Positions 8,398-30,778 of a stretch of 47,439 nt of DNA are shown piece by piece. The translations under genes and the position numbers were made by a program. Under the pieces are notes generated by a model. That model was not told where the DNA came from. It saw only the letters and a list, made by a program, of their open reading frames with translations, and ran no database searches. The DNA is from Gaiellales bacterium (GTDB taxonomy: Bacteria > Actinomycetota > Thermoleophilia > Gaiellales > JAICJC01): the NCBI GenBank assembly GCA_036273515.1, contig DASUHM010000028.1, forward strand, positions 1-47,439, given 5' to 3'. How positions within the stretch are numbered: position 1 is the stretch's first letter; the number at the start of each line of letters is the position of its first letter.

Positions 8398-10710
8398 TCA
8401 GCTTCCGAGCGTAGCCTGCGAGAGCACCGCTCGCAGCCGCAGAGCGCCGCCGAAGCGCTCGCGCGGCGTCAGCCGCTCGCGCACGTCGTGCTTGATGCTG
8501 CGCAGCTGCCTTCGCAGCTGGCGAGCCTCGTCCTCGGCCACCGGGAGCGGCGCGTAGCGGGCGCGCGTGGCGCTCGAGGCGAACGCCTTCGCGTCGACGC
8601 CGAACGTGCTGTCGACGCGCTCGGCCAGCTCCTCGAACGTGTCCTCGGGCCGCACCTCCATGCCCTGGTCGCCGACGAACGTGGCCAGGTCGTGGTAGGC
8701 CGCGGCGGCCTTCGCTCGCGGGCCGCGGCGCAGGTAGCGCCAGCGCACCGCGATCGCCTTCAGCGCCAGGATGGCGACGAGCACGACCGCCGTGATGGTT
8801 ATGAGCCACGTGAAGAACCGGCCGTGGCCGCTGCCGCTGCCCGCGGTGCGGATGGCGATCTGCGAGCTCGGGGTGCGACCGCCGCCGACGGCCTCGGCCT
8901 CGGCGTGGTGCTTCGCGTTCAGCGCGTTGATGTTGCCCTTGCCGCCGAAGATCGCACCCAGGTAGGTGGTCAGACCCGGCGGCGTGCCGCCGCCACCGGT
9001 GCGGATGGACGCGAACGCCGGGCTCGACGTGGAGCTATTGCTCGGCAGGTGGCTGCCCGGCGTGGGCTCGAACGGGATCCACCCGTAGCCGGGAAAGTAG
9101 ACCTCGACCCAGGCGTGGGCATCGCGGTCGTTCACGAGGTAGGTGTCCGACCCCTGCAGCTTCCCGGGCATGAAGCCCACCGCGACCCGGGCGGGGATGC
9201 CGTGCAGCCGCAGGACGAGCGCCATCGCGCCGGAGAACATCTGGCAGTAGCCGTGGTGGGTGAAGAGCATGAAATCGGCCAGCGCGGGCACCTTCCCCGT
9301 CAGATGCGGCGTGAGGGTGTAGTGGAACGGCTTGCTGCGGAAGTAGTGCTCCAGCGCGATCGTCGCCTCGTACTCGGTGTCCGCCTTGTCGGCCTGCGAA
9401 TTGATCCACGCCTGGTCCGAGGCGGCCATGAATGCCGCGCTGAGCGGATGCATCCCCTTGGGGAGCTTCTTCGGGTACGTCGGGATCGTCATGTTGCCGA
9501 CGACGATGCCGTCCCTGATCGCCCGGGGGAAGCCGTTCGGGTCGTTCGTGAGCTGGCCGGCGGTCGGGCTGGGGTCGTACACCGAGACCGAGTACTCCGT
9601 CTTCCGGGCGACGTCGCTGAGCGTCGTCACCGTGCCGTCCGCGTCCAGCAGCGACTGGACGCCGTCGGGGATCGACCACTTGACCGGCTGGCCGGCGCCG
9701 ACCAGATGGTCGTCGGCCAGGCCGAGCACCTTCACGTTGACGGTGTCGAGCTTCGGGGCGAACCGGGCCCGCAGCGGCAGCTGGTTGAGGGGCTCGGACA
9801 GCGAACCGCCGTTCGACGTCCCCACCACCTGGCCCTGCGACGAGAACTGCCAGTGGTCGATGAGGAAGGTGTCGAGGGTCGCCGCCTTCCAGTACATCTT
9901 CTTCTTCGAGCTGACCTCGAGCACCTGGGTGCGCTTCTTGGGCCAGTGCAGCGGCGCGTAGTTCTGGTTCCACATGTAGTCGACGCTCACCTGGGGGCCG
10001 TCGTGCGCGAGCGGGTTCCACGACTGCCAGGAGAGGAACGCGCTCTTGGTCACGCCCGGTGCGGTGCCGACGATCAGCCCGGCCAGGACGACGGCGACGC
10101 TCAGGCCGACCACCTGGGAGTCGCCGGCGAGCGGCCGGCCGCTGCGCTCGGACGTCGCGACCAGCGTGAGCAGCGCGAGCATCAGGAAGACGCCGGCCCG
10201 GAACGCGTCCGCGTGCAGCGGGAGCACCGTGCTCGGCATCGCGAAGAGCGCGAAGGCGACGCCGATCGCCGGGAGGGCGGCGCCGCGGCGCACGATCAGC
10301 CAGATGATCGCGCAGGCGGCGGCGAAGAACGCCAGCCGCAGGTCGTGGTTCGCGCCCGGGAAGCGCCCGGCGTCGATCGGCGTGTGCGTCCCGAACCAGT
10401 CGCGCAGGCCGTTCACGATCAGCTGCGAGACGCGCACGGGGTAGACCCCGTGCTGGGTCTGCCACGGCCAGGTGTGGGCGATCGCCCCGATGGCGGCGAT
10501 CGTCGCGGCGAGGAACGTCAGCAGGACGGTGCCGCGGCCGCGGCCGAGCAGCGCGGCGAGCGTGGGCAGGGCCGCCAGGAGCGCGAGGACGAGCAGCCCG
10601 CCGCCGGCCATGTGCGGCTGCTCGAGCCGGGCCCAGTGCCAGCCGCCGAAGAGGAGCAGCGCGCCGGCGAGGACGGCGGGCGCGATCCGCGGGCGCGGGA
10701 CCCTATCCAC
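8398..10710 (-). CDS. TgpA-type membrane transglutaminase-like protein
   Basis: 770 residues. Seven hydrophobic segments fill the first 220 residues, then a large extracytoplasmic region with a transglutaminase-like core, one more membrane segment (FFTWLITITAVVLVAILALK) and a cytoplasmic DUF4129-like tail. Catalytic Cys489 (HHGYCQMFSGAMAL) and His532 (AHAWVEVYF) are present; the third position is Glu548 (FEPTPG) rather than the usual Asp. Families of this build act on proteins or peptides outside the membrane; the substrate is unknown. Start GTG 10710 overlaps the DUF58 gene by 8 nt. The trio MoxR-DUF58-transglutaminase is a recurrent gene set. Confidence 0.9.
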   Translation of the reverse strand: MDRVPRPRIAPAVLAGALLLFGGWHWARLEQPHMAGGGLLVLALLAALPTLAALLGRGRGTVLLTFLAATIAAIGAIAHTWPWQTQHGVYPVRVSQLIVNGLRDWFGTHTPIDAGRFPGANHDLRLAFFAAACAIIWLIVRRGAALPAIGVAFALFAMPSTVLPLHADAFRAGVFLMLALLTLVATSERSGRPLAGDSQVVGLSVAVVLAGLIVGTAPGVTKSAFLSWQSWNPLAHDGPQVSVDYMWNQNYAPLHWPKKRTQVLEVSSKKKMYWKAATLDTFLIDHWQFSSQGQVVGTSNGGSLSEPLNQLPLRARFAPKLDTVNVKVLGLADDHLVGAGQPVKWSIPDGVQSLLDADGTVTTLSDVARKTEYSVSVYDPSPTAGQLTNDPNGFPRAIRDGIVVGNMTIPTYPKKLPKGMHPLSAAFMAASDQAWINSQADKADTEYEATIALEHYFRSKPFHYTLTPHLTGKVPALADFMLFTHHGYCQMFSGAMALVLRLHGIPARVAVGFMPGKLQGSDTYLVNDRDAHAWVEVYFPGYGWIPFEPTPGSHLPSNSSTSSPAFASIRTGGGGTPPGLTTYLGAIFGGKGNINALNAKHHAEAEAVGGGRTPSSQIAIRTAGSGSGHGRFFTWLITITAVVLVAILALKAIAVRWRYLRRGPRAKAAAAYHDLATFVGDQGMEVRPEDTFEELAERVDSTFGVDAKAFASSATRARYAPLPVAEDEARQLRRQLRSIKHDVRERLTPRERFGGALRLRAVLSQATLGS

Positions 10711-30126: not shown

Positions 30127-30390
30127 TCAGGCCGGCTCGGCGTCGCGGAACGGGTCGAACGACCGCTCGTCGGCCGGATCGCCCATCACCGCACGGGCGC
30201 GGCGCAGGAACACGTCGAGGCTGAACGGAGGCGGCTCGTCGCCGTCGACGACCAGCCGGAGCAGCCGCAGCGGCGCCGGCGAGGGCACGTCTGCCTCGGC
30301 CGGCGACCGCCGGGCTTCGCGCCACTCGGCCAGCGAGACCACGTTCGCGGCGGGCGCCGGAGCGAGGCCGATGTGGGGCAGTGCGCTCAC
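30127..30390 (-). CDS. Hypothetical protein downstream of the SOS LysM gene
   Basis: 87 residues from GTG 30390, overlapping the LysM gene stop as GTGA, so it is translationally coupled to an SOS-controlled gene. Sequence features: VVSLAEWREARRSP, a Pro-rich linker, LRLLRLVVDGDEPPPFSLDVFLRRARAVMG and an acidic end SFDPFRDAEPA. No membrane segment. No family recognised; by position it could take part in the DNA-damage response. Confidence 0.6.
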   Translation of the reverse strand: MSALPHIGLAPAPAANVVSLAEWREARRSPAEADVPSPAPLRLLRLVVDGDEPPPFSLDVFLRRARAVMGDPADERSFDPFRDAEPA

Positions 30391-30656
30391 GGAAGCACCA
30401 GCTCCTGGCCGGCGACGATGCCGGCGTCGTGCAGGTCGTTGGCCTGCTCGATCCGGTACACCGCGTCGCGCGGGTCGGACGACGGGTATGCGTGCAGCGC
30501 GATCGCCCAGAGCGTCTCCCCCGCCCGCACCGCGTGATGGCGCGGGTGCGAGGCGCCGCTGCTGCTCGGCGCGGCATAGCTCATGACGAACGCGAGGACG
30601 ACCGCGCTGGCCGCGATGAGGGCCAGGAGGCGGCGGATGTCGAGTGAGGCGAACAT
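30387..30656 (-). CDS. SOS-inducible LysM membrane protein (YneA/Rv2719c-like role)
   Basis: 89 residues: a short cytoplasmic start, one membrane anchor (LLALIAASAVVLAFVMSYAA, 10-29), a Ser/His-rich linker and a LysM peptidoglycan-binding domain (41-89, HAVRAGETLWAIALHAYPSS ... RIEQANDLHDAGIVAGQELVLP). Single-pass LysM proteins under LexA control are known cell-division inhibitors or wall regulators: YneA in Bacillus, Rv2719c beside lexA in mycobacteria. Two LexA boxes and a strong promoter are present; the second box contains this ATG. lexA itself is not in the window. The division-inhibitor role is inferred. Confidence 0.85.
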   Translation of the reverse strand: MFASLDIRRLLALIAASAVVLAFVMSYAAPSSSGASHPRHHAVRAGETLWAIALHAYPSSDPRDAVYRIEQANDLHDAGIVAGQELVLP

Positions 30657-30663
30657 GTGTTCG
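30650..30663. promoter_or_regulatory. LexA box overlapping the LysM gene start codon
   Basis: CGAACATGTGTTCG, a perfect GAAC-N4-GTTC palindrome of the Gram-positive/actinobacterial LexA type; the minus-strand ATG lies within it. Confidence 0.8.
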
Positions 30664-30666
30664 ATG

Positions 30667-30695
30667 ATGGTAGCGAACAGGTGTTCGGTTGTCAA
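30667..30695 (-). promoter_or_regulatory. Promoter of the LysM gene, with LexA box in the spacer
   Basis: Perfect TTGACA (30690-30695), 17-nt spacer, TACCAT (30667-30672), 10 nt to the ATG. The spacer is almost entirely LexA box. Confidence 0.85.
30674..30687. promoter_or_regulatory. LexA box between -35 and -10 of the LysM promoter
   Basis: CGAACAGGTGTTCG, perfect GAAC-N4-GTTC. Its centre is 24 bp from that of the first box, just over two helical turns, so two LexA dimers would lie on nearly the same face. Confidence 0.85.
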
Positions 30696-30716
30696 GGATC
30701 GATGTTCTCGCTCTTT

Positions 30717-30745
30717 CGGACACGGCTTTCGGAGCGGGTTAGGGT
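30717..30745 (+). promoter_or_regulatory. Promoter of the folP-like gene and its upstream ORF
   Basis: CGGACA (30717-30722), 17-nt spacer, TAGGGT (30740-30745), then 6 nt to the ATG at 30752. The spacing matches the other leaderless starts of this window and points to the upstream ORF, not to folP, as the first start codon. Confidence 0.55.
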
Positions 30746-30751
30746 GGCGCG

Positions 30752-30778
30752 ATGACCTCGCCGACCACCGCCGCATGA
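30752..30778 (+). CDS. Putative leaderless upstream ORF (eight residues)
   Basis: ATG to TGA codes for MTSPTTAA. The ATG is 6 nt after a TAGGGT box; the TGA overlaps the folP ATG in the sequence ATGA (30775-30778). A ribosome ending here could restart on folP, so the mini-ORF may be a translational-coupling device. Its peptide need not have a function. Alternatively it is the displaced original N-terminus of folP after a frameshift. Confidence 0.45.
   Translation: MTSPTTAA

Follow-up and report, generated by a model that had tools for sequence, protein, structure and literature searches.

A putative SOS cell-division suppressor of Gaiellales whose start codon lies within a LexA box

Results

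The window analysed here, a stretch of 47,439 nucleotides that makes up contig C28 of a Gaiellales genome (4.07 Mb, 97% complete), contains a gene for a small LysM protein that is likely to be an SOS cell-division brake, doubly locked by LexA. From its boxes and promoter, their conservation, the SOS regulon of the genome and the architecture of the protein, we predict LexA occupancy, a leaderless start, induction by DNA damage, division arrest and, possibly, a role for a partner protein. The features are listed in Table 1.

Table 1. Features of the LysM locus and related LexA and CGTCCG-type sites. Positions refer to the window unless a contig is given; G000 is the genome of the window.
Feature	Position	Strand	Description
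LysM ORF, putative SOS cell-division suppressor (YneA/ChiZ-like)	30387-30656	-	89 aa, single TM
Partner ORF	30127-30390	-	87 aa, small and soluble-looking; GTG start shares GTGA with the LysM stop
-35 element TTGACA	30690-30695	-	TTGACA-like hexamer kept in 66/79 orthologue promoters
LexA box 1 CGAACACCTGTTCG	30674-30687	.	within the 17-nt -35/-10 spacer; second exact box in 72/79 orthologues
-10 element TACCAT	30667-30672	-	ends 10 nt before the start codon
LexA box 2 CGAACACATGTTCG	30650-30663	.	holds ATG (30656-30654) and Phe-2 codon; register kept in 79/79
lexA box CGAACACACGTTCG	C11 48-61		lexA ATG at 79; 17 bp between box and ATG; same kind as at the LysM gene
CGTCCG-type element (ssb)	G000:C7:2044-2065
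CGTCCG-type element (recA)	G000:C24:15414-15435

Two LexA boxes in the LysM promoter

The LysM gene is preceded by TTGACA-N17-TACCAT on the minus strand (30695-30667), the sole promoter-like match within 1.4 kb; shuffled sequences give 0.1. As the initial annotation had described, a perfect LexA box lies in the spacer and a second box holds the ATG. Both are exact palindromes with 10 bp separating the 14-mers, and the distance of 24 bp given in that annotation is true only from start to start. The region has no match in Rfam. The divergent folP gene (Pterin_bind, plus strand) shares the intergenic region of the LysM gene (30656-30775 of the window).

An order-level search gave LysM protein hits in 113 of 129 Gaiellales genomes, nearly always one per genome. 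We located 80 distinct orthologues, one of which is cut by a contig end, and compared the remaining 79. In all 79 the start codon (75 ATG, 4 GTG) is within the LexA box at the identical position, CGAACNN-RTG-TTC. A second exact box is present 21-26 bp upstream in 72, so that an exact operator overlapping the promoter is retained among the orthologues. TANNNT ends 7-11 nt (mode 9) ahead of the start codon in 73 of them, and a TTGACA-like hexamer (at most one mismatch) is found 16-19 nt before TANNNT in 66. Two flanking positions that were not used to find the start are kept as well (C-7 in 79/79, G+7 in 71/79). The nucleotides of codon 3 are nearly random, and the orthologue promoters have a pairwise identity of ~43% in the flanking DNA. 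In the protein alignment Met-1 and Phe-2 never vary, whereas residue 3 is unconstrained; this pattern would be expected if the first two residues were dictated by the operator rather than by the protein.

The distance between the boxes drifts by about half a helical turn (21-26 bp), which favours two independent locks over a fixed cooperative pair; cooperative LexA binding is not evident from the spacing. The -10 element of the window ends 10 nt ahead of the start codon, within the 7-12 nt expected of leaderless genes. Since 7-11 nt is also the usual distance in the orthologues, the LysM mRNA is probably leaderless or near-leaderless. A literature search that covered open papers found no start codon inside a LexA box; experiments on a LexA or LysM protein of Gaiellales were not found either.

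The LysM promoters of L047, L061, L118, L129, L130 and L131 contain the element CGTCCG(A)-N8/9-TANNNT. An element of this type occupies the place of the missing spacer LexA box in 6 of 7 single-box LysM promoters, and it is also seen in lexA upstream regions across the class. CGTCCGAY-N8-TANNNT matches the 4-Mb genome exactly at only four places, and two of these are ahead of recA and ssb (Table 1). The Gaiellales element resembles the LexA-independent (PafBC) promoter of mycobacteria, tTGTCRgtg-N8-TAnnnT (PMC5656591). A tandem WYL gene is located at C95:11038-12315 of G000. The promoter sequences suggest that control swapped between LexA alone and PafBC together with LexA.

The LysM gene belongs to an SOS regulon

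The window genome encodes a single clear LexA, on contig C11 (89.2 bits to PF01726), of Gram-positive-type specificity and with a box ahead of its own gene. Exact CGAAC-N4-GTTCG sites number 19 genome-wide, against 2 for a reversed-pattern control. Base composition predicts ~3.4 such sites per 4.07 Mb and ~2e-5 pairs of exact boxes at 21-26 bp; these counts rule out boxes arising by chance. We read the regulon from the individual stretches around the sites. Besides lexA, the genes behind exact boxes are ruvC, dinB, recN and those that we take, from their own sequence, to be uvrA, ssb and recA, together with a DNA polymerase III alpha-type gene, an exonuclease/GIY-YIG/UVR gene and an nrdJ-type ribonucleotide reductase. 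Judged from these genes, the box set is an ordinary SOS regulon, the LysM gene included. LexA control, as initially proposed, thus agrees with the boxed lexA, the regulon and the order-wide conservation of the boxes, and a LexA of the required specificity is present in the genome.

The remaining exact box of the window (9802-9815) is within a long coding region and is probably a chance occurrence. Two further boxed genes are found in the window genome, G000. An Rv2578c-like radical-SAM gene with weak similarity to spore-photoproduct-lyase (L023:2206-3141, C23) has an exact LexA box 13 bp ahead. A 117-aa orphan ORF (L026:2011-2364, C37), which gave no match in a family search, has its start within an exact LexA box or right after it, and is a candidate SOS gene.

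A single-pass membrane protein with a LysM domain

The 89-aa protein matches PF01476 with 28.1 bits (cut-off 20.9). In the structure model, a TM helix (residues 7-27) is followed by the beta-alpha-alpha-beta fold of one LysM domain, with a pLDDT of ~90. This agrees with the TM and LysM product, like YneA or Rv2719c, anticipated by the initial annotation. The best family is the NCBIfam YneA model (NF010723; E 4.9e-11, residues 13-89 aligned to 7-85 of 87), although the score of 42.4 bits does not reach the equivalog cut-off of 60, and membership in the YneA family proper is not claimed. The model is matched by 26/26 orthologues scanned and is the sole NCBIfam model common to all of them. No catalytic domain is found in the window protein, and the orthologues have 79-89 residues. 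A fold search with the LysM model returned mostly LysM domains at E ~0.01 or worse, and nothing beyond the domain name. LysM domains are found also in hydrolases and spore proteins.

Architecture and regulation together suggest that the protein works like the Gram-positive SOS division inhibitors. Cleavage by signal peptidase after the TM helix may occur, and would give a secreted rather than an anchored protein. We also considered a prophage or mobile lysis gene with a LysM domain. This was rejected, as the best PHROG matches are weak (1e-4) and the gene is found order-wide beside folP and RNase Z.

The gene lies apart from lexA in Gaiellales

The LysM gene is not adjacent to lexA, in agreement with the location initially proposed: the two are on contigs C28 and C11. 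In families f1-f3 of Gaiellales, nearly every lexA locus examined consists of lexA followed by a small zinc-ribbon ORF, and the LysM gene stands apart under its own tandem-box promoter. No LysM match was found in the Gaiellales lexA loci examined. In family f12, which belongs to another order of class Thermoleophilia, the LysM gene is the third in a lexA - zinc-ribbon - LysM operon. Its product is an orthologue (E 1e-14 to 1e-22), and the lexA promoter has tandem LexA boxes behind a TTGACA. In M. tuberculosis and B. subtilis the gene is likewise beside lexA (PMC6851548), so its separation from lexA in Gaiellales is probably derived.

In most of the Thermoleophilia loci examined, the small zinc-ribbon ORF, which has two CxxC motifs, overlaps lexA or comes right after it. 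It was not seen in families f4 or f6, and the one tested (L019:711-953) has no Pfam family. Family f4 of Gaiellales yielded no convincing LysM gene of this type. In this family, lexA itself appears to start in its own LexA box, with a protein beginning M-F-D (L146, L147, L157, L163, L167).

A second gene is coupled to the LysM gene in one family

The initial annotation also described a following gene that overlaps by GTGA, and from it predicted a two-gene checkpoint. The overlapping ORF is present, and the partner is found directly behind the LysM gene, with a GTGA or ATGA overlap, in 5/5 genomes of the window's family f1. Compared with the closest relative, dN/dS is 0.26 for the partner and 0.19 for the LysM gene, and two motifs are conserved, V-[IV]-x-L-x-E at the N terminus and L[DE]xFLxRARxV at the C terminus. 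By these measures the partner is a real gene under purifying selection. It was not found in any other genome of the class that was searched, the rest of Gaiellales included, whereas the LysM gene occurs order-wide without it. This distribution rules out the partner as a general checkpoint component; it is an add-on, and the two-gene unit stands for one family at most.

No TM segment was found in the partner, nor any match in Pfam, PHROGs, NCBIfam or PDB, and its structure model (pLDDT 59) is too poor to use. Kinship with the zinc-ribbon protein behind lexA was considered from a shared 'TLDxV..AL' look and rejected, with a profile comparison probability of 0.2%. The gene order in family f1 relatives is folP - LysM - partner - RNase Z, and in the window two small ORFs separate the partner from RNase Z.

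Tandem boxes mark SOS LysM genes in Actinomycetota

We scanned ~85,000 species genomes at the DNA level only, for pairs of boxes with 8-12 bp between them and RTG inside the second. This gave at least 80 readable loci. Among the 80 listed, a LysM gene is just downstream in 44, at a lenient cut-off (E up to 1), lexA in 15 and both in 3; 24 have neither. The weak LysM matches among these loci are mainly Acidimicrobiia genes of ~145 codons, with a likely start some 20 nt beyond the box. The outcome identifies the tandem operator as a mark of SOS LysM genes in Actinomycetota, and the Acidimicrobiia starts outside the box indicate that the in-box start is the Gaiellales variant. Tandem CGAAC-N4-GTTCG with RTG in the second box is thus a signature that finds such genes without protein homology.

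Discussion

In an undamaged cell, LexA would be bound to two operators, one filling the -35/-10 spacer and the other covering codons 1 and 2 together with the transcription start, which would lock the gene twice. With both boxes occupied, RNA polymerase would be kept off the -35/-10 elements and the start region. DNA damage would lead to LexA cleavage, and the promoter would fire. Judged from the distance to the -10 element, the mRNA would begin at the AUG or no more than a few nt from it. The product would be short, with a membrane helix at the N terminus and the LysM domain outside the cytoplasm. By analogy to B. subtilis YneA, the helix may dock on the septal peptidoglycan synthase FtsW (PMC13396833), while the LysM domain binds nascent glycan, and septation would be delayed until LexA re-accumulates. 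In family f1, the translationally coupled second small protein probably acts alongside the brake or modulates it.

The SOS division inhibitors of Gram-positive bacteria are typically single-TM proteins, most of them with a LysM domain, whose genes adjoin lexA (PMC6851548). YneA, which blocks septal synthesis, depends on its TM helix for reaching FtsW and on its LysM domain for peptidoglycan binding (PMC13396833). ChiZ (Rv2719c) of M. tuberculosis is a DNA-damage-induced division inhibitor with TM and LysM segments (PMC3989709, PMC6851548), and chiZ adjoins lexA (PMC6851548). Like YneA, the window protein is short, with a single TM helix, one extracytoplasmic LysM domain and SOS box control. 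It differs in its score under the curated cut-off, in the place of its gene away from lexA with the start codon in the second operator, in the probably leaderless mRNA and in the coupled second gene of family f1. ChiZ is likewise an actinobacterial TM and LysM protein; it is reported as a cell-wall hydrolase, whereas the window protein has no catalytic domain. Rv2719c is also reportedly inducible independently of RecA, by the title of Brooks 2006 (cited in PMC13396833), while control of the window gene looks purely LexA-type.

In the f12 operon, the orthologous LysM protein has an N-terminal basic tail, and the tandem boxes stand before lexA; the LysM gene has no box of its own, unlike in Gaiellales. 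The lexA gene of M. tuberculosis is an SOS gene in which the translation start is the transcription start (PMC2897130). It is leaderless, as is predicted for the LysM gene, but there the gene is lexA itself, and it is not known to have a start codon inside the operator.

The LysM protein might instead be an SOS-induced wall protein with another job, such as repair, protection or modulation of hydrolases, that does not stop division. LysM is generic, the best PDB sequence matches of the profile are LysM domains of hydrolases, and the score under the YneA cut-off would fit as well. This is rather improbable given the small size of proteins that lack a catalytic domain, the YneA model as the only one shared by all 26 members, and the lexA linkage of the LysM gene in family f12. 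SOS control with a TM helix and a single LysM domain is, moreover, the usual set of a Gram-positive division inhibitor (PMC6851548). It is also unlikely that the two-gene operon is the real unit, with the 87-aa protein as an obligatory co-effector (adaptor, partner or antagonist). The overlap in 5/5 genomes, the dN/dS of 0.26 and the conserved terminal motifs are consistent with it, but a protein that was not found outside f1 in the order or class genomes searched cannot be needed for the general function.

It is possible, if doubtful, that the coincidence of box and ATG is a by-product without a special role: the free positions of the box permit ATG, its centre easily reads so, and all orthologues could stem from one founding event, frozen by descent. 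The lexA genes of family f4, which also appear to start in their own box, fit this explanation. However, the arrangement is kept in 79/79 despite ~43% identity nearby and the drift in spacing, which shows that both the operator and the start codon are under selection, but not how their combination would help.

SOS division inhibitors are usually found via their place beside lexA, where this gene is not, and yet it is nearly universal in Gaiellales, an order known mostly from metagenomes. A checkpoint can thus leave lexA. Tentatively, the brake could have been separated from lexA in Gaiellales and placed under a newly evolved double lock, in which operator, transcription start and codons 1 and 2 form one DNA element and a single LexA site fixes Met-Phe; one family could then have added a coupled brake-tuning protein. 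The Met-Phe start would be a clear natural case of an operator constraint that dictates protein sequence, and it makes testable whether the operator-embedded start of a leaderless mRNA lowers the leakage of a toxic division inhibitor.
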